A DNA stretch of 64,000 nt from Oscillospiraceae bacterium (GTDB lineage Bacteria > Bacillota > Clostridia > Oscillospirales > Acutalibacteraceae). A program made the translations under genes and the position numbers. This document shows, piece by piece, positions 7,095 to 46,501 of the stretch. The stretch's first letter is position 1, and each line of letters begins with the position of its first letter. The notes beneath the pieces were generated by a model, which did no database searches, was not told the DNA's origin, and saw only the letters and a program-made list of their open reading frames with translations. The stretch covers positions 1-64,000 of the forward strand of contig CACYHA010000008.1 of NCBI GenBank assembly GCA_902774035.1, given 5' to 3'.

Positions 7095-7156
7095 TGATAA
7101 TCGTCTGTCACGCAATCAAGCTGTGAACTCCGCAATTATAATAGCACTCCGCATGT

Positions 7157-7320
7157 GGAGATCTCTCTCCAAGCGACAGTCGCACGTCTCTTATTCCGTG
7201 CGCCCAGAGTGCCGTTCGCCTGACACCCTTCGGCGGCAGACCCTTTCGCGCCGGGCGAATGCTGCGAACATCCCTCTGCCCTGCGTTACTGATGCCTTTC
7301 CGCGCCTCTACCTTTAATTG
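7157..7320 (-). ncRNA. Lysine riboswitch (L-box) controlling dapA-dapB
   Basis: Read on the minus strand, the leader has lysine-aptamer landmarks in order: AGGTAGAGGCGC near 7313, a purine-rich GGCAGAGGGATG segment, GTCTGCCGCCGAAGGG, a CTGGGCGCACGG/CGTGCGACTGTC helix, and a closing GCTTGGAGAGAGATCTCC near 7157. This matches the order of conserved blocks in the L-box family (B. subtilis lysC type). It starts about 20 nt downstream of a promoter and ends before an intrinsic terminator, which supports transcriptional attenuation by lysine. Confidence 0.88.
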
Positions 7321-34296: not shown

Positions 34297-36228
34297 TCAT
34301 TCCAGCTCAAACGCGCCCTGATACAGCTTGGCATACGTGCCGCCTGCGGCGATGAGCTGCTCGTGGGTGCCGCGCTCGATGATGCGGCCGTGGTCGAGCA
34401 CCATGATCACGTCGGCGTTCTGCACGGTGGAAAGGCGGTGGGCGATCACAAAGACGGTGCGGCCCTTCATCAGCGCATCCATGCCGCGCTGGACAAGGGC
34501 TTCCGTGCGCGTGTCGATGGAGGAGGTGGCCTCGTCAAGGATCATCACGGGCGGGTCGGCAACGGCTGCGCGGGCGATGGAAAGAAGCTGGCGCTGCCCC
34601 TGCGAAAGGTTTGTGCCGCCGGAGGTCAGCATCGTGTTGTAGCCCTCGGGCAGGCGGGAGATGAAGCCGTGGGCGTTCGCCTTTTTCGCGGCTTCGATCA
34701 CCTGCTCGTCCGTGGCGTCGAGGTTGCCGTAGCGGATGTTTTCCATCACCGTGCCGGTGAAAAGGTTCACGTCCTGCAGCACCACGCCGAGCGAGCGGCG
34801 CAGATCGCTCTTTTTGATCTTGTTGATGTTGATCCCGTCGTAGCGCACCTTGCCGTCGGCAATGTCGTAAAAGCGGTTGATCAGGTTCGTGATCGTCGTT
34901 TTGCCCGCGCCGGTGGCGCCGACGAAGGCGACCTTTTGCCCCGGCTCGGCGTAAAGGGTGATGTCGTGCAGCACGGTCTTGCCCTCCACATAGGCGAAGT
35001 CCACGTCGAACATCCGCACTTCGCCCTTCAGCTCGGTGTAGGTCACGGTGCCGTCGCCGTGGGGATGCTTCCACGCCCACATGCCGGTGTGTTCTTCGGT
35101 TTCAAAAAGCTCGCCGTTCAGTTTTTCCGCGTTGACCAGCGTGACGTAGCCGTTGTCGGTCTCCGGCTCGGCGTCCATGAGATCGAAGATGCGCTCCGCG
35201 CCGGCAAGGGCCATGACCACGGAGTTGAGCTGCTGCGAGACCTGGTTGACGGGCATGATGAAGCTCTTGGAAAGCTGGAGGAAGGCCGCCACCGCGCCGA
35301 GATTCAGCGAACCGACGCCGCGCGTTGCCAGAACGCCGCCGAGGATGGCGCACAGCACATACTGCAGGTGGCCGAGGTTGTTGTTGATCGGGCCGAGGTT
35401 GTTGGCAAAGCGGTTGGCCTGATAGGCGTTTTCAAAGAGCGTGTCGTTCTTTTCGTCAAAAACGGCCTTGACCTGCGGCTCGCGCGAAAAGACCTTGACG
35501 ACCTTCTGGCCGTGCATCATCTCTTCGATGTAGCCGTTCACGTCGCCGATGGAGGTCTGCTGCTTCATGAAGTATTTGCCCGATTTTCCGGCGACCTTGC
35601 CCGTGACAAAGAACATGAACAGCACAAACAGCACCGTGAACACCGTCAGGTGCCAGGAGGTGACGACCATCGAGACGAAAACGGCAACGATCGTGACGAG
35701 GGAGGACACGGTCTGCGGCACGGTCTGGGTGATCATCTGGCGCAGGGTGTCGGCGTCGTTGGTGTAATGGCTCATCACGTCGCCGTGGGTGTGGGTGTCA
35801 AAGTATTTGATCGGCAGGGTCTGCATATGGGCAAACATCTCGTTGCGGATCTTTTTCAGCACGGTCTGGCCCACCACCGCCATCGTGCGGTTCTGGATGA
35901 GCACGGCGAGGATGCCGGCGAGGTAGATGGCCGCCATCTTGCACAGCGCGAAGAACAACGGCTTGAAATCGCCGGAGCGCGTCTGCACCATCGGCAGGAT
36001 GTAATCGTTGATGAGGGTCTTGAGAAAGAGCGAGGAGGCCACGGAGGACAGGGCGGTGACGATGATGCACACCGTGACCAGACCCAGGCGCAGAAGATTT
36101 CCCTGCGTGATGGTTTTGAACATCCGCAGCACTGTGCCTTTTTTGAGCTTTTGCTTCGGCATTCCGCGGGCGGGCACCCGGTTGCCGCGCGGCCCGGTTG
36201 GAACTTTGTTGACGTGTTCTTCCGCCAT
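34297..36228 (-). CDS. ABC exporter half-transporter, catalytic-site subunit
   Basis: A 643-residue fused permease/ATPase (type IV ABC exporter). The N-terminal ~45 residues are basic and disordered. A six-helix membrane domain (~50-350) and an ATPase domain follow. The ATPase domain has Walker A GATGAGKTT, signature LSQGQRQLL and Walker B MILDEATSSID with the catalytic Glu. The partner at 36228 lacks that Glu, so this pair is a heterodimeric exporter with one working and one degenerate site, as in TM287/288. Its start overlaps the partner's stop. An insert between helix 6 and the Walker A strand (EEHTGMWAWKHPHGDGTVTY) is slightly longer than usual. Confidence 0.93.
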   Translation of the reverse strand: MAEEHVNKVPTGPRGNRVPARGMPKQKLKKGTVLRMFKTITQGNLLRLGLVTVCIIVTALSSVASSLFLKTLINDYILPMVQTRSGDFKPLFFALCKMAAIYLAGILAVLIQNRTMAVVGQTVLKKIRNEMFAHMQTLPIKYFDTHTHGDVMSHYTNDADTLRQMITQTVPQTVSSLVTIVAVFVSMVVTSWHLTVFTVLFVLFMFFVTGKVAGKSGKYFMKQQTSIGDVNGYIEEMMHGQKVVKVFSREPQVKAVFDEKNDTLFENAYQANRFANNLGPINNNLGHLQYVLCAILGGVLATRGVGSLNLGAVAAFLQLSKSFIMPVNQVSQQLNSVVMALAGAERIFDLMDAEPETDNGYVTLVNAEKLNGELFETEEHTGMWAWKHPHGDGTVTYTELKGEVRMFDVDFAYVEGKTVLHDITLYAEPGQKVAFVGATGAGKTTITNLINRFYDIADGKVRYDGININKIKKSDLRRSLGVVLQDVNLFTGTVMENIRYGNLDATDEQVIEAAKKANAHGFISRLPEGYNTMLTSGGTNLSQGQRQLLSIARAAVADPPVMILDEATSSIDTRTEALVQRGMDALMKGRTVFVIAHRLSTVQNADVIMVLDHGRIIERGTHEQLIAAGGTYAKLYQGAFELE

Positions 36229-37973
36229 TACTGCGCACCGCCTTTCGTTTGGGAGTTGTAGACTTCGGTGTAGATCCTGTCGCTGCCGAGCAGGCTTTCG
36301 TGGGTGCCGACGGCTTCGATCTCGCCGTCGTCGAGAATGATGATCTTGTCGGCGTGCTCCACAGAGGACACACGCTGAGCAATGATGATCTTTGTGGTGG
36401 AGGGGATGTATTCCCGGAAGCCCTTGCGGATGAGGGCGTCGGTCTTGGTGTCCACGGCGGAGGTGGAATCGTCAAGGATCAGCACCTTCGGCTTTTTCAG
36501 CAGGGAGCGGGCGATGCAAAGGCGCTGCTTCTGGCCGCCGGAGACGTTTGTGCCGCCCTGCTCGATGTGGGTGTCGTAGCCGTCGGGGAATTCGCGGATG
36601 AAGCTGTCGGCCTGCGCGAGACGGCAGGCTTCTTCAATCTCTTCGTCCGTGGCGTTTTCGTTGCCCCAGCGCAGATTTTCTTTGATCGTTCCGGAAAACA
36701 GGACGTTCTTCTGCAGCACCATCGCCACCTGGCCGCGCAGGGTGTCGAGGTCATAGTTTCGCACATCCACGCCGCCGACGCGCACCGTGCCTTCGGTTGC
36801 GTCGTAGAGGCGGGCGATGAGCTGGACCAGCGTGGATTTGCCCGCGCCCGTGGAGCCGAGGATGCCCACGGTCTCGCCGGAGCGAATGGAAAAGTTCGCG
36901 TTTTTGAGACAGAGCTTGTCGCGGCTCCCCGCGTAGCTGAAGGAGACGTTTTCAAATTCCACGCTGCCGTCTTTGACCTCCGTCACCGGATGCTCCGGGT
37001 TCTTCAGGTCGCTCTCTTCGGCCAGCACCTCGCAGATACGTTCGGCGGAGGCGCGGCTGAGGGTGAGCATGACGAAGATCATGGAGATCATCATCAGGTT
37101 CATGAGGATCTGCATAGCGTAGGTGATGAGAATCACAAGGTCGCCTGTGGTCATGCCGTTTTCGGCGCTGTTGCCGGAGGCAAAGATCATCTGTGCGCCG
37201 AACCAGGAGATGAGAATCATCACGCTGTTGGCGGAAAGCTGCATCATCGGCGCGTTGAAGGCCAGCAGCTTTTCGGCAGAAACAAAATCACGGAAGATGT
37301 TTTCGGATACCGTGTTGAACTTTTCCTTTTCGTGTTCCTCGCGGACAAAGGCTTTCACCACGCGGATGCCGTGAAGGTTTTCGGAAACGACGCGGTTGAG
37401 CTTGTCGTAGGTCTGAAACACCCGGGTGAAGATCGGGTGGGCGTTCTTGATGATGAGTCCCAGTCCGAGCCCCAGCAGCGGCAGCACGCAAAGGAAGATC
37501 AGCGAAAGCCGGTGGTTCACGCGGAAGGCCATGACCAGCGAAAAGACCAGCATCAGCGGCGCGCGCACCGTGATGCGGATGATCATCTGATAGGAGTTCT
37601 GCAGGTTCGTCACGTCCGTTGTCAGGCGCGTCACAAGAGAGGCGACCGAAAAACGGTCGATGTTGGAAAACGAAAAGCGCTGCACGTTGTGGAACATATC
37701 GTGGCGCAGGTTCCGCGAAAAGCCGGACGAGGCGAAGGCGGCGTTGCGGCCGGCCAGCACGCCGAAGGTCAGTGACAGCACGCAAAGGCCCACGAGCACG
37801 GCGCCGATCTTCAGGATATAGGCCATGTTGCCGGGCGTGACGCCGTTATCCAGCAGCTTGCCCATGCAGTAGGGGATGATGACCTCCATGACCACCTCCA
37901 GCGACACGAAAAACGACGCGAGGATCGACGGGGTTTTGTATTCACGTACGCTGGCAGCCAGACGTTTGAGCAT
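36228..37973 (-). CDS. ABC exporter half-transporter, degenerate-site subunit
   Basis: A 581-residue fused permease/ATPase. Membrane domain ~1-320; ATPase domain with Walker A GSTGAGKST, signature VSGGQKQRL and Walker B VLILDDSTSAVD. Here the catalytic Glu after Walker B is Asp, the hallmark of the non-hydrolysing site of heterodimeric exporters. SD AAAGGAGG lies inside the end of marR, and the two frames overlap by 32 nt. Its stop meets the start of the next subunit. Substrate is probably a drug, peptide or lipid; MarR control favours a toxic compound. Confidence 0.93.
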   Translation of the reverse strand: MLKRLAASVREYKTPSILASFFVSLEVVMEVIIPYCMGKLLDNGVTPGNMAYILKIGAVLVGLCVLSLTFGVLAGRNAAFASSGFSRNLRHDMFHNVQRFSFSNIDRFSVASLVTRLTTDVTNLQNSYQMIIRITVRAPLMLVFSLVMAFRVNHRLSLIFLCVLPLLGLGLGLIIKNAHPIFTRVFQTYDKLNRVVSENLHGIRVVKAFVREEHEKEKFNTVSENIFRDFVSAEKLLAFNAPMMQLSANSVMILISWFGAQMIFASGNSAENGMTTGDLVILITYAMQILMNLMMISMIFVMLTLSRASAERICEVLAEESDLKNPEHPVTEVKDGSVEFENVSFSYAGSRDKLCLKNANFSIRSGETVGILGSTGAGKSTLVQLIARLYDATEGTVRVGGVDVRNYDLDTLRGQVAMVLQKNVLFSGTIKENLRWGNENATDEEIEEACRLAQADSFIREFPDGYDTHIEQGGTNVSGGQKQRLCIARSLLKKPKVLILDDSTSAVDTKTDALIRKGFREYIPSTTKIIIAQRVSSVEHADKIIILDDGEIEAVGTHESLLGSDRIYTEVYNSQTKGGAQ

Positions 37974-38403
37974 CGGGATCGACCTCCTTTTGGATTTTTG
38001 AAAGCACTGCGAAAAAGCAGTCCACCTCTTCTTCGTTCAAAGAGGCGCGCAGCTTGGTTTCCAGCGCGGCAAAGTCTTCTTTTATCCGCTCGTGCAGGTC
38101 GAGCGCCTTGTCGGTGAGGGTGATTTTTTTCAGCCGGGCGTCGTAGTCCACGCTCTCCCGCAGGATCAGGCCGTTTTGCTCCATGCGCTGCAGGATCGCC
38201 GTGGCGGTGGAGCGGCGGATGTTGCACTCCTTTTCAAAGTCGCGCTGAAATATGTCCTTGTCCCGGTGGTCAAAGAAATAGCCGATCGCCCAGCCGTGGG
38301 TTCCGGTCAGGTGGTCGATCTCATCCTTGAGCGCATGGCTGTCCATATAGCGGCGGATCAGCCGCGAGGTTTTATGCAGCTCAAAGGCGATCTCCTTTTC
38401 CAT
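37942..38403 (-). CDS. MarR family transcriptional regulator
   Basis: A 153-residue winged-helix repressor. It has an N-terminal dimerisation helix and HTH FEKECNIRRSTATAILQRMEQNGLI. The wing ESVDYDARLKKITLTDKA is followed by C-terminal helices. It leads the ABC exporter operon and overlaps the first transporter gene by 32 nt. Its promoter is the consensus TTGACA-N17-TATAAT. Two direct repeats of TTGTTAGCYTWCGAA lie between the -10 and the ATG, a likely autoregulatory operator released by the exported compound. Confidence 0.92.
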   Translation of the reverse strand: MEKEIAFELHKTSRLIRRYMDSHALKDEIDHLTGTHGWAIGYFFDHRDKDIFQRDFEKECNIRRSTATAILQRMEQNGLILRESVDYDARLKKITLTDKALDLHERIKEDFAALETKLRASLNEEEVDCFFAVLSKIQKEVDPDAQTSGCQRT

Positions 38404-38416
38404 GGCTTCGCCTCCT

Positions 38417-38482
38417 TTGTTAGCCTTCGAATTGTTAGCTTACGAACAAAGTGATTATACACGAAGGGCGGGGCTGTGTCAA
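38417..38482 (-). promoter_or_regulatory. marR-ABC promoter and probable MarR operator
   Basis: Minus strand -35 TTGACA (38482-38477), 17 nt, -10 TATAAT (38459-38454). On the plus strand two head-to-tail copies, TTGTTAGCCTTCGAA and TTGTTAGCTTACGAA (38417-38447), overlap the expected transcription start. Confidence 0.75.
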
Positions 38483-38511: not shown

Positions 38512-38540
38512 TTGACAAAAAAGCGCCGGTTGATTATAAT
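38512..38540 (+). promoter_or_regulatory. Consensus promoter of the corrinoid locus
   Basis: TTGACA (38512-38517), exact 17-nt spacer, TATAAT (38535-38540), immediately before the cobalamin aptamer. Confidence 0.88.
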
Positions 38541-38544
38541 TGGA

Positions 38545-38720
38545 ATGAAATGAAAAAGCGCCTCGCAGAAGGAAAGTCCGGTGAGAATCCGGCGCAACCG
38601 CCATTGCCGTATCAGCCGCAGCGTCGGCTCAAGTCGGAATGCTTCGCCCGGCGCGGCGTCAATGCTTTTCGGGCAAGGGGAAAAGTCAGCCGCGGGCAGC
38701 CGTATGAAAATGCGGTCTGT
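38545..38720 (+). ncRNA. Cobalamin riboswitch
   Basis: The leader carries the B12-box GGTGAGAATCCGGCGCAACC within GGAAAGTCCGGTGAG...CCGCCATTG. The downstream block AAGTCGGAATGCTTCGCCCG (38631-38650) is the conserved core partner that follows the peripheral arms. The order and spacing fit the cobalamin family. The aptamer begins a few nt after the consensus promoter and is followed by a perfect terminator hairpin at 38736, then the DUF4430 gene at 38821, so cobalamin should switch the operon off by termination. Exact 3' boundary uncertain. Confidence 0.87.
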
Positions 38721-38735
38721 TTCCTGTGTTTGCTG

Positions 38736-38767
38736 CACTGTTTCCGCCGAAACAGTGTTTTTCTTTG
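38736..38767 (+). terminator. Riboswitch terminator
   Basis: CACTGTTTC (38736-38744) pairs perfectly with GAAACAGTG (38749-38757), loop CGCC, followed by TTTTTCTTT. Confidence 0.88.
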
Positions 38768-38820
38768 GATCATTTGCCGCCTTCGCGGTCAGTGAAATAT
38801 ATTTTTCGGAGGAAATTCTC

Positions 38821-39744
38821 ATGAAATTCAGAAAATCCATCAGTGTGCTGTTGGTTCTTGCTCTGCTGTGCGGATTCGGCTGCCTGTTTGCTTCGGCCGG
38901 CGACGCAAACGTCGTGATCGGCAAGGCCTACATCAGCTTTGTTGACAACGGTGTGCGTCCCGCGCGCGCGGAGACAGACCCGCCCTACAAGTATCCCGAT
39001 CCCATCGGCACGATCTATACCCGCAGCGCAGTGGAGCTGCACGCGGGCGACACGGTCGCCGACGTGACCAAGCGCTTCGTGGAAGGCGTGAAGGGTGCAA
39101 AAATGGGCTACAAGACCACGGAATACGGCACCTACTTTGCTTCCATCGACGATGTGACCACGGATTCCGGCGAGAAGCTGGACAGCATCGGCGAATTTGA
39201 CGCCGGCGCAAAGAGCGGCTGGATGGTTCGTGTCAACAACCAGTTCCTGTCCGTCAGCGCGGATCAGGCGGCTGTGGATCTTGACGACGACGTTGCCTGG
39301 GTCTATTCCTGCCAGTGGGGCGCCGACGTCGGCAACGACTGGAACATCACCTCCGCCGAGATCACCGGCGTGACCTTCTCCGCCGGCACCCTCTCTCCGG
39401 TGTTCAGCGCAGACGTGCACGATTACACGCTGAGCCTTCCCGCCAACGTGATGAGCGTGAAAGCGGACGCGGCGCTGAAAAACTACAGCTGCAAGGTCAC
39501 CTACACCCTTGTGCACGACGGCAAGTCCGTGGACTATAAGTACTACCGCGACATTCCCGTTTCCGACGGCGACAAGATCATCATCAAGTCCGAATATATG
39601 GATTGGGAAGGCAAAGTGACCGACACCGACACCGTGACCGTGACCATCGCGCAGGAATCCGGCTCGCCGGTGAGCTTCATCCGTGCCTTCTTCATGGCCA
39701 TCATCGATTTCTTTAAGAACCTCTTCTCCAGATTCACGAAATGA
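38821..39744 (+). CDS. Secreted DUF4430 (transcobalamin-like beta domain) protein with cadherin-like sandwich
   Basis: A 307-residue exported protein. Signal peptide 1-24. A DUF4430 domain (~55-170) with AVELHAGDTVADVTKRF, then KSGWMVRVNNQFLSVSADQ and WVYSCQWGADVG. A cadherin-like beta sandwich (~180-280) with FSAGTLSPVFSADVHDYTLSLP. The tail is FIRAFFMAIIDFFKNLFSRF. DUF4430 is related to the C-terminal cobalamin-capping domain of transcobalamin and intrinsic factor. It is the first gene under the cobalamin riboswitch and overlaps the alpha-barrel gene by ATGA. I infer extracellular corrinoid binding; the amphipathic tail may hold it at the membrane. Confidence 0.87.
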   Translation: MKFRKSISVLLVLALLCGFGCLFASAGDANVVIGKAYISFVDNGVRPARAETDPPYKYPDPIGTIYTRSAVELHAGDTVADVTKRFVEGVKGAKMGYKTTEYGTYFASIDDVTTDSGEKLDSIGEFDAGAKSGWMVRVNNQFLSVSADQAAVDLDDDVAWVYSCQWGADVGNDWNITSAEITGVTFSAGTLSPVFSADVHDYTLSLPANVMSVKADAALKNYSCKVTYTLVHDGKSVDYKYYRDIPVSDGDKIIIKSEYMDWEGKVTDTDTVTVTIAQESGSPVSFIRAFFMAIIDFFKNLFSRFTK

Positions 39745-40979
39745 GGCTCGGGCACAAAGCAAAAGCGGGTTGCGCATTTCTTTGCGCAGCCCTGCTCTTT
39801 TTCAGCCTGCTGTTTCCCGCTTTTGCTTCTGAGCGCGGCGGCTCTGCCGATCTTCTGGCGCAGGAGATCGCCGCAGCCTTTGACGCCCGCAGAGAGCACA
39901 GCGGAAGGGCGAAGACGCTGCTGGACAGCGAGGGCTTTCTGGCCGAAACGCCGGACGGTCCCGCGGCGCAAAGCTCCACCTTCACGGACTGGATCGCCCT
40001 GGCCATGGGTCGCTTTTCCGTCGTGAATTCCGCCGGCGTGCCGCTGTTTTATTACCCCGACGGGCAGGACGCCTACCGCAGGGGACTGGAAGTCTATGTG
40101 ACGCAGACCTATGCCCAAAACGGCGGTCTGCTCTCGAAAAGCAAGGTCACCGAGCCCCAGCGCTGCGCTCTGGTTTTTGCCGCGCTCGGCGGAGACCCGA
40201 CCCGCTGCGGCGCTTTTGCGGGGGAACCGGTCGATCTCATTGCCGACGGGAGCTACAACAGCAAGCTCGACGTGACGCGGCAGGGACTGATGGGCGTGAT
40301 CTTTGCCCTGATCGCGAAAAACGCCCGCGACGTGAAAACGCCGCAGGCGGTCAAATACTCCGATCTGTTTCTTTATACCTATCTGCTGGAGCGCGAGCTT
40401 CCGGCCGGAGGCTGGACCTTGTCGGGGGACAAGGCCGACCCGGATGTGACGGCTATGGCGCTGTGCGCGCTTGCCCTGCGCAGAAACGAGCCGACGGTCT
40501 ACACCGTGAAACGCGCCGCCGCGGGTGAAACGGAAAAAACCACCCTCGGCGAAGCGGCCGATCGCGCGCTTGACGCCCTTTCGCGTCTGCAGCGGCCCGA
40601 CGGCGGCTATGCCAGCGGCGGCACGCCCAACTGCGAAAGCTGCGCGCAGGTGCTCACGGCGCTGAGCATGTGCGGCGTCGACGCCGCGGCGGACAGCCGC
40701 TTTTTCAAAAACGGGAACAGCGTTCTCGACGCCCTGCGCACCTTCCGTCTGGCCGACGGCGGTTTTGCCCATGTCAGGCAGAACGGCAGGGCGCAGACAT
40801 ATAACGTGATGGCCACCGATCAGGCAGCCTATGCCCTTGTGGCTTACTGGCGGCTGCAAAGCGGACAGCGCGGCCTGTATGACATGCGGCCGGATCTGCC
40901 CGCGCCGCTGACCGCGCTGCTGCAAAGACTGGTGCGCCGCCTGGTTCAGGCGCTTTCGCCCGGCTTCACCGGCACATAA
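39741..40979 (+). CDS. Secreted alpha/alpha-barrel protein (prenyltransferase/squalene-oxidase repeats)
   Basis: A 412-residue exported protein with signal peptide ~1-29. It has repeated helical-hairpin motifs of the terpene-cyclase/prenyltransferase/transcobalamin type: AGGWTLSGDKADPDVTAMAL, RPDGGYASGGTPNCESCAQV and ADGGFAHVRQ followed by ATDQAAYALVAYWRL. Transcobalamin and intrinsic factor use this six-hairpin barrel as their large cobalamin-binding domain. Its 4-nt overlap with the DUF4430 gene, under one cobalamin riboswitch, suggests the two secreted proteins act as a split pair around corrinoid. The 3' end overlaps the convergent AraC gene by 34 nt. Confidence 0.85.
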   Translation: MRLGHKAKAGCAFLCAALLFFSLLFPAFASERGGSADLLAQEIAAAFDARREHSGRAKTLLDSEGFLAETPDGPAAQSSTFTDWIALAMGRFSVVNSAGVPLFYYPDGQDAYRRGLEVYVTQTYAQNGGLLSKSKVTEPQRCALVFAALGGDPTRCGAFAGEPVDLIADGSYNSKLDVTRQGLMGVIFALIAKNARDVKTPQAVKYSDLFLYTYLLERELPAGGWTLSGDKADPDVTAMALCALALRRNEPTVYTVKRAAAGETEKTTLGEAADRALDALSRLQRPDGGYASGGTPNCESCAQVLTALSMCGVDAAADSRFFKNGNSVLDALRTFRLADGGFAHVRQNGRAQTYNVMATDQAAYALVAYWRLQSGQRGLYDMRPDLPAPLTALLQRLVRRLVQALSPGFTGT

Positions 40980-41767
40980 ATGTCGGTCTCTTCGCCGCAG
41001 TAGCGCTCAAAATCGCGGGTGCTGCCGTCAAAGACATAGCCCGACTGCGCAAACCAGTCCTTGAAAATGAACCGCCACACGGCGCTGACATTTTCGTGGA
41101 GCTGCTGCGGCGTTTCGCCCTTCGGGACGGAAAAGACCGCATAAGTCGCCGCCGGAAAGGCGAGCAGACGCATCCGGGCGGGCAAAGCGGCGTCTTCGGC
41201 CACTTCGGGGCCGAGAAAATAGCACAGCTTGTCGCTTTCGTCCTCCGGCAGCAGCCAGGTGCCGATCTCGGCATAGCCGGGCGCGCAGAGTTTTGCGTAG
41301 TCCTCGGCGCTGACGGCGGAAAAATCCTTGCCCAGCCAGTAGGCGCCGCTGCTTTGGGGATCCAGCTCCTCTTCGGCGGGCAACACATAGCCCGCGGCGA
41401 AGAAGGCGTCTTTTGTTTCCAGTTTCGGAACGATCATAAGAATACCTCCCTGTTGTTTTTGGAAATCGGAGGGCGCCGCGCCGAACCGGCGGCGGAACGC
41501 CCGGGCAAAGCCGGAAACGCTTTCGAATCCGCAGGCAAAGGCCGTTTCCGTCACACTGCAGCCGTCCCGCAGACGCTGGGCGGCGTCAAACAGGCGCATC
41601 TGGCGCAGATAGGCGCCGGCGGACACGCCGTAGATGCTTTTGAACACGTGGCAAAAATGAAAATAGGAATAGCCGCAGTGCTGCGCAAGCGTCTGCGCAC
41701 TGAGGGCTTCGCCGCTTTGCGCGCGGGCAAAGGCCAGACACCGTTCCATATCCGCCCGGTAATCCAT
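40946..41767 (-). CDS. AraC family regulator with GyrI-like effector domain
   Basis: A 273-residue protein. N-terminal double HTH (residues ~8-105): LAQHCGYSYFHFCHVFKSIYGVSAGAYLRQMRL and VTETAFACGFESVSGFARAFRRRFG. The C-terminal ~155 residues are a GyrI-like ligand-binding domain (RMRLLAFPAATYAVFSVPKG). Such proteins sense amphiphilic small molecules. It sits in the middle of the corrinoid locus on the opposite strand, divergent from the second DUF4430 gene by 97 nt, so it may regulate the transporter half. Its 3' end overlaps the alpha-barrel gene antisense. Confidence 0.88.
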   Translation of the reverse strand: MDYRADMERCLAFARAQSGEALSAQTLAQHCGYSYFHFCHVFKSIYGVSAGAYLRQMRLFDAAQRLRDGCSVTETAFACGFESVSGFARAFRRRFGAAPSDFQKQQGGILMIVPKLETKDAFFAAGYVLPAEEELDPQSSGAYWLGKDFSAVSAEDYAKLCAPGYAEIGTWLLPEDESDKLCYFLGPEVAEDAALPARMRLLAFPAATYAVFSVPKGETPQQLHENVSAVWRFIFKDWFAQSGYVFDGSTRDFERYCGEETDIYVPVKPGESA

Positions 41768-41864
41768 GCGCGTTTCTCCTTCCTTTCCTTTCTGCTTTCA
41801 TTCTATCACAAAACCGAAAAGACCGCTATTCCTTTTTTGCGATTTTTTCGCCGAGGACTCATCC

Positions 41865-43040
41865 ATGAAAAAAACGCTTTCTCTGTTTCTCGCTTTGCTG
41901 TTTTGCTTTTTGTGCTGCGCCTGCGCCGTGCAAAGGCCCACCACCCTTGCCGGAGAGCTCATGCTGCCGGAAGACGGCGTGCTTTCCGCCGAAACCCTTT
42001 CCGCTTTGCAGACGGAGCGCAAGGCCGTGACGCTGCGGGGCGAGACCGACGGTTTGACCTATACCTGGACGCTGTTCGGCGGGGAGATCGACGAACCCCG
42101 GGACTGCAATTTTGCCCTGCGCAGCATCCGCGCCGACAAAAAGCGGATCGAGCTCGCCTTCGCTTCCGGGGCAGGCTTCGGCTTTTCTCCGGTGCTGACC
42201 GTCTTCCTTCCGCACAGACTGAACGCCGATGTTGCGGCGGTCTGCCGCGCTCCGGGGGACGAAGAAAGCTTTGTCTGTGCCGCATCGGTCACAACGACGA
42301 AGAACGGCGGGGCGGTGAGCTTCCCCGTGGCCGACCCCACGGGCGTCTATGTGATCACGCCCGAGCCGCGTGTGCCGGTGACGGCGGAGCCGGATTTACC
42401 GGACGAACCCGACGAACCGACGGCCGCCGCGACGACCGCTCCGACGGCGGCGCACACTGTTCCGCCGGCGACGGGCGAGCCTGCCGCGCCGACAAAACCT
42501 TCGGCAACGGCCAAGCCGCCCGCGACAACGGCCCCGACGACCGCCGGGCCTGCCGCGCCGACCGAAGCCGTGTCCACAACCGCAGCGGCGGCAGCGACCG
42601 TGACGACGACGACCGCCGCCGAAGCGCCGCGATGCACCTTTTCCATCGAGTGCGGCACGATCTTTCAGCATTTGGAGGATCTGGAGCCGGGAAAGCTCGA
42701 CGCCCTGCCGCCGGACGGTGTGATCCTGCCGGCGCAGACCGTAACATTCACGCAGGGCGAGAGCGTCTTCGACGTTCTCAAGCGCCTTTGCCGCGAAAAG
42801 GGGATCCCGATGGAGGCCTCCTATGTGCCGCTGTATCAGAGCGCCTATGTGGAGGGCATCCACAATCTTTATGAATTCGACTGCGGCTCCGGCTCCGGCT
42901 GGATGTACCGCGTCAACGGCGACTATCCGAACTTCGGCTGCAGCCGCTATGCGCTGAAAAACGGCGACACCGTGGAGTTCCGCTACACCTGCGACCTCGG
43001 CGCCGATATCGGCGGGCGCAATGATTTTTCCGCAGAGTAA
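41865..43040 (+). CDS. Exported DUF4430 protein, probable lipoprotein
   Basis: A 391-residue protein starting at the ATG at 41865 (GAGGA upstream). The signal sequence LSLFLALLFCFLCCACA has a Cys-rich end that could be lipidated, although it is not a textbook lipobox. A beta domain (~30-165) and a long Pro/Ala/Thr linker (~170-262) with AAATTAPTAA-type repeats follow. The C-terminal DUF4430 domain has CTFSIECGTIFQ, TVTFTQGESVFDVLKRLC and GSGWMYRVNGDYPNFGCSRY. It precedes ecfT by 9 nt. Likely surface-tethered receptor that delivers corrinoid to the ECF importer (inference). Confidence 0.85.
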   Translation: MKKTLSLFLALLFCFLCCACAVQRPTTLAGELMLPEDGVLSAETLSALQTERKAVTLRGETDGLTYTWTLFGGEIDEPRDCNFALRSIRADKKRIELAFASGAGFGFSPVLTVFLPHRLNADVAAVCRAPGDEESFVCAASVTTTKNGGAVSFPVADPTGVYVITPEPRVPVTAEPDLPDEPDEPTAAATTAPTAAHTVPPATGEPAAPTKPSATAKPPATTAPTTAGPAAPTEAVSTTAAAAATVTTTTAAEAPRCTFSIECGTIFQHLEDLEPGKLDALPPDGVILPAQTVTFTQGESVFDVLKRLCREKGIPMEASYVPLYQSAYVEGIHNLYEFDCGSGSGWMYRVNGDYPNFGCSRYALKNGDTVEFRYTCDLGADIGGRNDFSAE

Positions 43041-43049
43041 GGAGAGCCT

Positions 43050-43922
43050 ATGCAGAACCGTTCGCTCACTGTGCATCCTCTGGTGCTGATCGGCGCGTTT
43101 TTCGCCGCGCCCTGTTTCACCATGTTTTTGATGCATCCCGTCTGCCTCGGGGTGTCGCTTTGCGCGGCGGTCCTGTGTCTGCTGTGTCTCGGCGGCGGCG
43201 AAAGCCTGCGGCGCGCGCTGCGCCCGGCGCTTCCTGCGGCGCTGTTGGCGGCGGCGGTGAACATGGCGTTCAACCACCGGGGGCAGACGATCCTCTTTTA
43301 TCTCCCCGGCGGCAACCCCTGCACGCTGGAAAGCCTTTGCTACGGCGCGGCGGCCGGGGTCCTGCTGGCGGCGACGCTGCTCTGGTTTTCCTGCTGCGCC
43401 GCGGTGCTCACCACCGACCACTTCACCTTTTTGTTCTCCCGTGTCTCTCCGGCGCTGGCGCTGCTGTTTTCGATGACGCTGCGCTTTTTGCCGCGGTTTC
43501 GCCGCCGCTTTGCTCTTGTGCGGCAGGGACAGCCGGAACCGGCCGGACGGGTTGCAAAGCTCAAAGCGGCCTTTGCCGGCTTTTGGGCGGTGGTCGCCTG
43601 GGCGCTGGAGCACGCCGGAGAAACGGCGGATTCCATGAACGGCCGGGGCTACGGCCTGCAGGGGAGAACCGCGTTTTCGATCTTTCAAAAAACCGCGCGC
43701 GACCGGCTGCTGCTGGGCGGCCTTTGCGCTTTGGCGCTGGGCGTGCTGTGCGCGTGCGTGACGGGGCTGTTCCGCTTTTCCTATGCGCCGCGCCTGCTGG
43801 CCGAACCCCTTTCGCCCCGGAGCGGCTGCGCGTTTTTCCTGTTCGCTCTGCTGTGCGCTTATCCCATCTTGATTCTGAAACTGGAGGACCGTCCATGGCG
43901 CTGCTCGAAGTCCGACAACTGA
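43050..43922 (+). CDS. ecfT: ECF transporter T component (CbiQ/EcfT family)
   Basis: A 290-residue membrane protein with about six hydrophobic segments. Its long cytoplasmic loop holds the EcfA-coupling motif ADSMNGRGYGLQGRTAF (Ala-Arg-Gly signature) near residues 190-210. It links S component and ATPases in group II or dedicated ECF importers. SD AAGGAG precedes the ATG. Its 3' end overlaps the ATPase fusion gene by 28 nt. With the riboswitch-controlled genes upstream, cobalt-corrinoid is the most likely cargo, though cobalt or another vitamin is possible. Confidence 0.9.
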   Translation: MQNRSLTVHPLVLIGAFFAAPCFTMFLMHPVCLGVSLCAAVLCLLCLGGGESLRRALRPALPAALLAAAVNMAFNHRGQTILFYLPGGNPCTLESLCYGAAAGVLLAATLLWFSCCAAVLTTDHFTFLFSRVSPALALLFSMTLRFLPRFRRRFALVRQGQPEPAGRVAKLKAAFAGFWAVVAWALEHAGETADSMNGRGYGLQGRTAFSIFQKTARDRLLLGGLCALALGVLCACVTGLFRFSYAPRLLAEPLSPRSGCAFFLFALLCAYPILILKLEDRPWRCSKSDN

Positions 43923-46501
43923 GCTTTACCTATCCGAACGCCGCGTCACCCGCACTGGGGGGCGTGAGCTTCGCTGTGGAACCGGGCGCGTTTTGGGCCT
44001 TGTGCGGCCCCTCCGGAAGCGGAAAATCCACGCTGCTGCGCCTGCTGAAGCCCGGCCTTGCGCCGAACGGCGAAACCGGGGGCACGGTGCGCTTCGACGG
44101 CGAAGATCTGCAGTCTCTTGACCGCCGCCGCGCTGCCGCGGAGATCGGCTTTGTCGGCCAGAACCCGGCCGCGCAGCTTGTGACCGACAAGGTCTGGCAC
44201 GAGCTGGTTTTCGGCATGGAAAGTCTCGGCGTGCCGCAGGCGGAAATGCGCCGCCGTGCGGCGGAGACCGCCGCGTTTTTCGGCATCGAACCTCTTTTCC
44301 ACCGCCGCACGGATGCGCTTTCCGGCGGCCAGATGCAGCTTTTGAACCTTGCCGCCGTGATGACGCTGCGGCCGAAGCTGCTGCTGCTGGACGAACCCAC
44401 GGCGCAGCTCGACCCCATTGCGGCGGAAGAATTTCTCCTTGCCCTGCAAAAGACCGCCCGCGAGCTGGGCACGGCCGTTTTGCTCTGCGAGCACCGGCTG
44501 GAGCATGTGCTGCCCCTGTGCGGCGGGATGCTTGTGCTGGAGGAGGGTCGGGTGCTCTGCGGCGGCGACGTGCCGTCCGTCGGCGCGTTCCTTCTTGCAA
44601 GCGAACATCCCTTTTCCCTTGCGCTGCCCACGGCGATGCGCGTGCACGGCAGCGTGCGGACGGATCTGCCCTGCCCGGTCAGCGTGCAGCAGGGGCGGGA
44701 TTTTTTGCGCGCTTACCTTGCCGATCACGCGGCAGAGCCGCTGCCGGTTTTGCCGCCCCCGGCCGAAGAAAAAGCCGCGGCGCTCGAAGCGAAGGAGGTC
44801 TTCTTCCGCTACGCAAAGGACGCCGCGCCCGTGCTGCACGATTTTTCGCTTGCGGCCTTTCCGGGCGAGCTGCTGTGCGTTCTCGGCGGCAACGGCGCAG
44901 GCAAAACCACAGCGCTGCGCGTGTTGGCCGGGCAGCTTTCCCCGCAGCAGGGGAGGGTGCGCCGCGCCGGAACGGCGGCGTTTCTGCCGCAGGATCCGAC
45001 CCTGCTCTTTCTCAAAAACAACCTTTCGGCCGATCTGAAGGCCGCCGCGCCGGATGCGGACGAAAAGGACGTTGAACGGATCGTCGCCCTCTGCCGCCTG
45101 CAGGGGCTGCTGGAACGCCACCCCTTCGATCTTTCCGGCGGGGAGCAGCAGCGCGCCGCGCTGGCAAAGCTCCTTTTGACAAAGCCGGACATCCTGCTGC
45201 TGGACGAGCCGACGAAGGGCTTTGACGCGGCCTTCAAGGCGGAATTCGCCGCCCTTTTGCTGGAGCTCAGGGCGCAGGGCGTCTGCATCGTCATGGTCAG
45301 CCACGACGTGGAGTTCTGCGCCGCCCACGCCGACCGCTGCGCGTTGCTGTTTGACGGCGCCCTTGCCGCACAGGCGCCGACCCGCGCCTTTTTCGGCGGC
45401 AACCGCTTTTACACCACGGCGGCGAGCCGCATGGCGTACGGGCTGCTGCCGGATGCGGTCACAGCAAAGGATATCGTGGCACAGATCGGCGGCCGATTGC
45501 CGAAGGCTCCCGCAGCACCGGGCCCGGCGCCCGCGCCGCAGACCATGCCGCAAAAGCAGCCCGACAAACCGCTGCCCCTCTGGCGCAAGGCCTGCGCCGC
45601 TCTTTGCGGCTGCGGCGCGCTGGGGGCGCTGATCGCCGCGCTGCGGCAGGGTGATCTGCAAGCGCTGACGGACGCGCAGGGCGTGACGGCGGCAGGCGCA
45701 AATCAGCTTTGGTTCTACGCCGTGTTTTTCGCGCTGCTGTTTGCCGCGGCGCTCCTGCTGCGCCGAAAAACGGAACAGCCGCCCTGTTTTCCGAAAAGCA
45801 AATCCTCCAAACGCGCCGGCCTTGCCGCTGCGCTTGTGGTGCTGCTTTCGGTGCCGACGCTCTTTTTGGGCGTGCGCTTTTTCGGCAGCCGGGGCTTTTA
45901 CCAGGTCGCGCTGCTGCTGCTTTTCGAAGCGATGCTGCCGTTCTTTTTGCATTTTGAGGGCCGACGGCCTCCGGCGCGCGAGCTTGTGGTGCTCGCGTCG
46001 CTGTGTGCGCTGAACGTGGCCGGGCGCGCGGCCTTTTTCATGCTGCCGCAGTTCAAGCCCGTGCTGGCGGTCACGGTGATCGTCGGCGTCGTTCTCGGCG
46101 CGGAGCGCGGCTTCCTTGTGGGCGCGGTGACGATGCTCGTTTCCAACGTCCTGTTTGCCCAGGGTCCTTGGACGCCGTGGCAGATGTTTGCCATGGGGCT
46201 GGTCGGTGCGCTGGCCGGGTGGCTGACGCAGCTCGGCGTGCTGCGCAAACGGCGGCTGCCGCTGGCGGTCTTCGGCGCGCTGGCTGCCGTGCTCGTCTAC
46301 GGCGGCGTTCTCAACCCGGCCTCGGCTCTGCTCTGGGGCGGCGAAGCCCTGAGCGCCGGGGTGATCCTCAGCTATTACGTCACGGGTCTGCCGATGGATC
46401 TCGTTCACGCCGCGGCGTCGTTCTTCTTCCTCTGGGTGCTCAGCGAGCCGCTGATCGAGCAGCTCGAGCGCGTGAAGGTGAAGCTGTTAGATACCCGCTG
46501 A
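43895..46501 (+). CDS. Fused ECF transporter ATPases (EcfA-EcfA') with C-terminal S-component-like membrane domain
   Basis: An 868-residue single chain. The first ATPase domain (1-~225) has GPSGSGKST, LSGGQMQLL and LLLLDEPTAQLD. The second (~285-500) has GGNGAGKTT, LSGGEQQRAAL and ILLLDEPTKGFD. After a Pro/Ala linker comes a hydrophobic region (~560-860) with about eight segments, including VIVGVVLGAERGFLVGAVTM, VSNVLFAQGPWTPWQMFAMG and ALAGWL. These match ECF substrate-specific components. The whole importer apart from EcfT is thus one polypeptide. Both ATP sites look intact. Cobalamin as cargo is inferred from the riboswitch upstream. Confidence 0.88.
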   Translation: MALLEVRQLSFTYPNAASPALGGVSFAVEPGAFWALCGPSGSGKSTLLRLLKPGLAPNGETGGTVRFDGEDLQSLDRRRAAAEIGFVGQNPAAQLVTDKVWHELVFGMESLGVPQAEMRRRAAETAAFFGIEPLFHRRTDALSGGQMQLLNLAAVMTLRPKLLLLDEPTAQLDPIAAEEFLLALQKTARELGTAVLLCEHRLEHVLPLCGGMLVLEEGRVLCGGDVPSVGAFLLASEHPFSLALPTAMRVHGSVRTDLPCPVSVQQGRDFLRAYLADHAAEPLPVLPPPAEEKAAALEAKEVFFRYAKDAAPVLHDFSLAAFPGELLCVLGGNGAGKTTALRVLAGQLSPQQGRVRRAGTAAFLPQDPTLLFLKNNLSADLKAAAPDADEKDVERIVALCRLQGLLERHPFDLSGGEQQRAALAKLLLTKPDILLLDEPTKGFDAAFKAEFAALLLELRAQGVCIVMVSHDVEFCAAHADRCALLFDGALAAQAPTRAFFGGNRFYTTAASRMAYGLLPDAVTAKDIVAQIGGRLPKAPAAPGPAPAPQTMPQKQPDKPLPLWRKACAALCGCGALGALIAALRQGDLQALTDAQGVTAAGANQLWFYAVFFALLFAAALLLRRKTEQPPCFPKSKSSKRAGLAAALVVLLSVPTLFLGVRFFGSRGFYQVALLLLFEAMLPFFLHFEGRRPPARELVVLASLCALNVAGRAAFFMLPQFKPVLAVTVIVGVVLGAERGFLVGAVTMLVSNVLFAQGPWTPWQMFAMGLVGALAGWLTQLGVLRKRRLPLAVFGALAAVLVYGGVLNPASALLWGGEALSAGVILSYYVTGLPMDLVHAAASFFFLWVLSEPLIEQLERVKVKLLDTR

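Follow-up and report, generated by a model that had tools for sequence, protein, structure and literature searches.

A predicted vitamin B12 uptake operon combining DUF4430 and alpha/alpha-toroid proteins with a CbrT-like importer in an Oscillospiraceae bacterium

Described vitamin B12 systems and the operon

Vitamin B12 and its relatives, the corrinoids, are contested in gut communities. In Bacteroides, BtuG, BtuH and BtuJ (DUF4465) are described as extracellular B12 capture proteins (PMC6977713, PMC13398666), and surface binders of this kind are also the subject of PMC10404256 and PMC8941943. For Gram-positive bacteria, a review of B12 uptake lists BtuFCD and the energy-coupling factor (ECF) transporter ECF-CbrT (PMC6977713), and homologues of BtuFCD and CbrT are reported from gut genomes (PMC6593275); in the portions of this literature available to us, BtuFCD homologues and ECF-CbrT are named for Gram-positive gut bacteria, and no surface capture protein. 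ECF-CbrT of Lactobacillus delbrueckii, whose structure has the code 6FNP, is reported to take up both cobalamin and cobinamide (PMC5997447). Here, we describe an operon of an Oscillospiraceae bacterium, a relative of Clostridia from animal guts. The operon lies in the first 64,000 nucleotides of contig CACYHA010000008.1 (assembly GCA_902774035.1), the whole stretch that was analysed and that is called the window below. The genome comprises 2.30 Mb in 48 contigs and is about 85% complete. Behind a riboswitch leader, the operon encodes an exported DUF4430 protein (duf1), a secreted protein assigned to the alpha/alpha-toroid type (the toroid), a DUF4430 lipoprotein (duf2), the coupling protein EcfT and a fusion of two ATPases with an S component. 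We consider it very probable that this operon serves the uptake of corrinoids.

The locus resembles several described systems, each in one of its parts. With ECF-CbrT it shares an S domain that is homologous over nearly the whole of CbrT, an EcfT protein with two ATPases, and a cobalamin gene context. It differs in that a single chain combines the S domain with both ATPases and is accompanied by its own EcfT, and in that exported DUF4430 and toroid proteins are added, whereas the available text of Santos et al. describes no soluble partner. With the animal carriers transcobalamin, intrinsic factor and haptocorrin it shares a DUF4430 domain related to their beta domain and an alpha/alpha-toroid partner, and in five relatives the toroid is followed by DUF4430 in one chain, as in the animal proteins. 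In contrast to these, the window encodes the two parts as separate chains, the similarity of its toroid to their barrel is weak, a further DUF4430 lipoprotein and an importer belong to the operon, and the binding of corrinoids is a prediction. The Bacteroides binders are set apart by their descriptions, as a beta-propeller (BtuG) and a beta-jellyroll (DUF4465) instead of a toroid with DUF4430; BtuG is also described as a partner of the outer-membrane transporter BtuB, whereas an ECF importer stands in this place in the window. A likeness to the cellulosome and the amylosome (e.g. that of Ruminococcus bromii) is found in many relatives, where a membrane cohesin and a toroid with a dockerin tail are encoded side by side. 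In this case the cargo would be a vitamin binder and not a glycan-degrading enzyme, and the genome of the window has no dockerin match.

Homologous loci, control region and importer

With the window toroid as the sole query, a search of 79 genomes from its genus, family and order found relatives in 28, a count that includes the genome of the window. A scan with the DUF4430 profile, in which each species was represented by one genome, yielded at least 588 confirmed relatives, and the best 80 of these were taken as a locus set (L063 to L142; L034 and L063, as well as L038 and L119, are apparently the same contigs reached twice). Within this set, EcfT is encoded in 77 loci and the ATPase-S fusion in 71; 64 loci have the toroid and 56 have all four components, with many contigs ending inside the operon. 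In an even sample of the phylum, the toroid was detected at E ≤ 1e-10 in 60 of 299 genomes. Of the 59 genomes other than that of the window, at least 57 contain DUF4430 within 8 kb of the toroid, 48 contain a CbrT-like S domain in this range and at least 33 a cobalamin riboswitch among the matches listed; all three features are present in at least 31. A riboswitch would be expected there at random in about 5%, assuming uniform placement. Apart from the window's row, the toroid alignment A5 was drawn from loci that had been found through DUF4430, which favours co-location in this sample. The outcome speaks for cobalamin, and not another regulator, at the homologous loci, and for the pairing of toroid and DUF4430 that the original prediction, made from the window's letters alone, had proposed. 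Like gene sets thus occur in many related bacteria, and this way of scavenging B12 may be widespread and so far undescribed: by titles and abstract openings, no description of a system of toroid, DUF4430 and ECF importer was found in the open-access literature, nor does such a system appear in the parts consulted of amylosome papers and of work about syntrophic sulfate reducers.

The same prediction had placed a consensus promoter, a cobalamin aptamer and a terminator at the head of the operon, and all three are present (Table 1). A profile of the aptamer core (27 bases and two further requirements, threshold 17) gave a single match on either strand of the 64 kb, at 38571 with a score of 17.4 and followed by a box-like element, and this was still the only match in the window when the threshold was lowered to 10. 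L033 and L063 retain the promoter, the core, the box-like element and the terminator, with a mean column identity of 83%; both loci are from the same genus as the window, L063 is apparently the contig of L034, and the core of L033 scores 16.9, just below the threshold. At a threshold of 17, no match was found over 2.97 Mb of shuffled sequence of the relatives (single-base shuffles, not dinucleotide-preserving), and a chance aptamer was rejected on this ground. Among the 85 loci with more than 800 nucleotides of upstream sequence, the core is located at most 1300 nucleotides upstream of a system gene in 53, or in 41 of 73 without the 12 loci that were counted here after their aptamers had served to train the profile (one training row, L036, is one base out of register). 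Other placements gave no match on the reverse strand, nine elsewhere on the forward strand and none in the shuffles.

Aptamers of the cobalamin family RF00174 above the gathering score are found upstream of the toroid open reading frame (ORF) in 13 of 29 homologous loci (L035, L036, L038, L039, L040, L045, L046, L048, L049, L050, L054, L057 and L058), and L056 has an adenosylcobalamin (AdoCbl)-II aptamer upstream of this ORF. Likewise, RF00174 lies on the operon strand, no more than about 1.5 kb upstream of the first system gene, in 38 of the 50 genomes searched, which are those of 50 of the 80 loci, with contig identity assumed from coordinates and checked by sequence in seven loci. Since the leader is kept in L033 and L063, the core has a single match in the window and homologous loci carry aptamers at gathering level, a chance origin of the element is unlikely and, judged by its sequence, the aptamer is a real, divergent member of the cobalamin type. 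A scan of the window at Rfam gathering level returned no cobalamin aptamer; its sole match was a lysine riboswitch at 7134-7318 on the minus strand (76.2 bits).

Regarding the importer, 23 S domains with a mean column identity of 64% were made into a profile, which was compared with all solved chains and had one significant match, chain A of 6FNP, over residues 8-177 of 182 (E value in Table 1). The only other chain retrieved at E ≤ 10 was 4HZU_S, with an E value of 0.85. These results support the prediction that EcfT and the ATPase-ATPase-S fusion form an ECF importer for cobalamin, as had been proposed on first reading. The rest of the genome is consistent with a need for such an importer: a B12-binding domain is present in a protein that by eye is MetH-like, and CobS has no match (at about 85% completeness), a combination that is suggestive of a dependence on outside B12. 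The proposal that the system replaces BtuBFCD is reasonable, but one Peripla_BP_2 protein elsewhere in the genome makes a second, BtuF-like import route possible.

DUF4430, the toroid and their surface anchors

DUF4430 has been linked to the carboxy-terminal part of the animal transcobalamins (PMC4350170). We compared the DUF4430 family profile (alignment A3) with the beta domain of five animal B12 carriers using hhalign and obtained a probability of 94.9 and an E value of 4.4e-8, with a score of 50.4; none of 60 column shuffles scored above 18.7. This agrees with the kinship that the original prediction had stated for this domain. A small DUF4430 alignment (A2) searched against the PDB gave nothing significant (best E 0.08). 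Two DUF4430 proteins were found in the genome and both are encoded in the operon. The domain was also detected in two control genomes, Lactococcus lactis and Methanosarcina acetivorans, and therefore extends beyond Clostridia.

The toroid protein taken alone has no meaningful Pfam match (best FliX, E 0.17), and its core has none at E ≤ 0.01. The barrel repeats of prenyltransferase and squalene type that had been assigned to it become visible through its relatives: SQHop_cyclase_C matches 46 and Prenyltrans 45 of the 57 rows of alignment A5 (E ≤ 0.01), and the family profile, built from either 27 (A1) or 57 rows (A5), matches solved squalene-hopene cyclases (Table 1). On the strength of these domain and structure matches, the protein can be assigned to the alpha/alpha-toroid superfamily. 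No transcobalamin or intrinsic factor chain was retrieved from the PDB with the toroid profile, even at E ≤ 10.

Relatives in which the two proteins are fused are good evidence that toroid and DUF4430 work together. A single chain contains the toroid and the second DUF4430 in L047, L052, L053, L055 and L056, with the toroid first, as in transcobalamin, and two membrane-segment-like stretches as the joint. The opposite order is found in Ruminococcus bromii, a starch degrader reported to be unable to make B12 (PMC6231298), where a protein of 633 residues (L120, 6536-8434) contains DUF4430, a Cadherin-like domain (below the Pfam cut-off) and the toroid. This chain is the counterpart of duf1 plus toroid of the window and has a type I dockerin at its end (Pfam E 7.9e-11).

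Most of the toroid proteins examined in relatives end in a surface anchor, a feature outside the original prediction, and these anchors vary. Among 61 tails (some loci have two), Pfam recognizes Dockerin_1 in 35, SLH in 14 and the LPXTG anchor model in one, and further sortase-like endings were noted by eye. S-layer homology-like tails and no dockerin are found on the toroids of L123, L125, L127, L128, L131, L132, L134, L136, L137, L139 and L141; in some of the loci with SLH tails there is, in addition, a gene for a second toroid or DUF4430 protein that is very long. A membrane-anchored protein of about 210 residues is encoded in 42 of the 80 loci, usually directly before the lipoprotein gene (for example at 7470-8105 in L064, 7624-8256 in L072 and 7634-8266 in L068). 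The Pfam Cohesin family matched all 33 of these proteins that were scanned (E ≤ 0.1, best E 1.9e-9), out of 36 ORFs of which three, from L123 and L131, were left out as they overlapped or matched toroid ORFs. The cohesin identity is that given by Pfam, since an alignment of these proteins had no match in the PDB better than E 0.097. In all 33 loci with a toroid and a cohesin gene, the toroid tail bears the dockerin motif NAQDAL, which was read from these same tails, and the motif is found in none of the 31 other toroid loci. The operon in many relatives seems to encode a cohesin together with a dockerin predicted to match it; the R. bromii locus has a different dockerin and no cohesin gene. 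Neither was a cohesin gene found in L033, L034, L063 or the window operon, the rest of the window's genome not having been searched for cohesin. The window operon looks like a stripped-down version, as it has no cohesin gene, an AraC-GyrI type regulator gene occupies that slot, and both the toroid and duf1 end in short C-terminal segments that appear amphipathic by eye.

Proposed mechanism, alternatives and gene order

We propose, as the likely overall explanation, a scavenging operon run by a riboswitch, with a two-chain extracellular binder, a lipoprotein receiver and a CbrT-like ECF importer. When intracellular B12 is low, the riboswitch would let transcription pass through the terminator. 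The toroid and duf1 would be exported and would jointly bind extracellular corrinoid, like a transcobalamin cut into two chains; the membrane lipoprotein duf2 would then take over the corrinoid, which the CbrT-like S domain, in one chain with both ATPases, would carry inside with ATP. That the toroid or DUF4430 binds corrinoid is fairly likely, and for a transcobalamin-like clamp made of the two the chances appear evenly balanced. The control elements, the gene set, the relations to CbrT and transcobalamin and the recurrent co-location and fusion are computational results; the binding by these proteins, a shared interface between them and the order of hand-over are inferred.

Several observations weigh against this proposal. 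On the side of control, the match of the leader to RF01482 (26.8 bits, E 0.0069) does not reach the gathering score of 50, RF00174 has no match in the whole genome at E ≤ 0.001, and the aptamer core is out of range or absent in 32 of the 85 loci, some of which have a contig start inside the operon. On the side of gene context, a CbrT-like S domain is missing within 15 kb in 10 of the 59 toroid genomes, eight of which also lack a listed riboswitch. Concerning the clamp, the closest sequence relatives of the toroid are squalene-hopene cyclases, a profile of the fused bacterial proteins (A8, five sequences) found nothing in a comparison with transcobalamin (E 0.48), and the toroid family matches the profile of five animal B12 carriers weakly (score 32.0, E 0.0014, probability 17.3). 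The last score compares with at most 22.3 in 60 column shuffles and at most 16.2 in reversed controls, which points to some similarity between the toroid and the transcobalamin barrel, short of homology beyond the superfamily. The split transcobalamin-like system originally read from the window is thus supported in its control, its importer, its DUF4430 relation and its pairing of proteins, but not to the same extent in its barrel.

If only the DUF4430 proteins of the uptake operon bound corrinoid, the toroid could act as an adhesin or as a scaffold by which complexes are kept at the surface, and there are facts that fit: the clear homology to transcobalamin is that of DUF4430, the anchors on the toroid proteins of relatives are varied, and 16 of the best 80 loci have no toroid. 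In 13 of these 16, no more than about 2 kb of sequence precedes the DUF4430 gene, and in L095, L116 and L117 no toroid was found in more than 4 kb of sequence before it. However, the toroid keeps polar and aromatic residues that are more suggestive of a ligand site than of a spacer (W84, D235 and Q361 in 57 of 57 rows of A5 and E299 in 55, in the numbering of the window protein), and it is fused with DUF4430 in both orders; we therefore regard a purely structural toroid as unlikely. Much less probable still is an enzyme of the terpene cyclase or prenyltransferase type that sits in a vitamin operon by chance. Its proximity to squalene-hopene cyclases would agree with such a role, as would a weak match of the window toroid to the NCBIfam SCO2321 family membrane protein (E 1.5e-5), which is also a hint of toroid relatives elsewhere. 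Against it, the catalytic motif DXDD of squalene-hopene cyclases is incomplete in 57 of 57 rows, where the position aligned with its last Asp is occupied by I, M, V, L, T or G and never by D, and the toroid is exported and recurrently linked to cobalamin riboswitches, CbrT and DUF4430. The enzyme was rejected on account of the incomplete motif.

It is just as improbable that the importer carries another ligand, such as riboflavin, folate or a cobalt or nickel species, with the cobalamin riboswitch being the mark of cross-regulation only. The curated families nearest to the S domain are indeed named for riboflavin and folate, and they are general or below cut-off (PF07155, E 1.4e-7, above its cut-off; TIGR04518, E 1.6e-5, far below). 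On the other hand, the S domain has repeatedly been found next to cobalamin riboswitches and beta domains of the transcobalamin type, and CbrT is its sole significant solved relative, for which reason a riboflavin or folate importer was rejected.

Beyond the window, we put forward tentatively, as somewhat less secure than the clamp itself, that many Clostridia have a bacterial counterpart of the animal transcobalamin clamp, made as one chain or as separate chains, held by interchangeable surface anchors that include a membrane cohesin with a toroid dockerin, feeding an ECF importer of the CbrT type and possibly sharing ancestry with the animal B12 carriers. If corrinoid is bound as proposed, the system would supply the missing surface capture step for many Clostridia, including Ruminococcus bromii, and would amount to a whole Gram-positive surface B12 capture system. 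It would also extend cohesin-dockerin anchoring to vitamin capture. The beta domain of transcobalamin would then have a bacterial relative that is itself linked to B12, and the origin of the animal B12 carriers would become testable.

The features of the operon are listed in Table 1. Its gene order agrees with that first read from the window: two secreted proteins whose genes overlap by ATGA, a second DUF4430 protein, EcfT and the ATPase-ATPase-S fusion were all confirmed.

Table 1. Positions of the control elements and genes of the operon in the window, with the evidence for each
Feature	Position	Strand	Evidence
Sigma-70 type promoter, TTGACA-17-TATAAT	38512..38540	+	12/12 consensus positions; also in L033 and L063
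Divergent cobalamin (AdoCbl-type) riboswitch aptamer	38545..38689	+	RF01482, 26.8 bits; core profile match at 38571; kept in L033 and L063
Intrinsic terminator of the riboswitch leader	38735..38758	+	10-pair stem, 4-base loop and T run; stem followed by T-rich tail; aligned in L033 and L063
duf1, secreted DUF4430 + Cadherin-like protein	38821..39744	+	PF14478, E 1.3e-8; PF12733, E 1.1e-5; signal sequence by eye
Secreted protein assigned to alpha/alpha-toroids, 412 aa	39741..40979	+	Family profile vs squalene-hopene cyclase repeats, E 7.9e-21 (A1), 2.2e-15 (A5); signal sequence by eye
AraC-GyrI type regulator gene	40946..41767	-	HTH_18, E 3.7e-22; GyrI-like, E 6.6e-12 (Pfam)
duf2, DUF4430 lipoprotein, 391 aa	41865..43040	+	PF14478, E 5.2e-18; lipobox LCCAC by eye
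EcfT transmembrane coupling protein	43050..43922	+	CbiQ, E 0.0036, below Pfam cut-off; with the operon in 77/80 loci
ATPase-ATPase-S-component fusion, 868 aa, S domain CbrT-like	43895..46501	+	Two ABC_tran stretches (E 3.3e-54) and ECF S domain; S-domain profile vs 6FNP, E 2.4e-12

The AraC-GyrI type gene, which was absent from the original gene list, runs on the opposite strand between the toroid and lipoprotein genes and overlaps the end of the toroid gene. A like gene occupies the same slot in L033, and a cohesin gene is found there in many other loci. This gene is not clearly a member of the system; the ligand of its product could be a corrinoid or something unrelated.

Upstream of the operon, a second perfect TTGACA-17-TATAAT promoter is located at 38454-38482 on the minus strand, back to back with the operon promoter. 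It faces a MarR-like gene and two ABC-transporter-like genes (the latter recognized by eye) at 34297-38403 on the minus strand.

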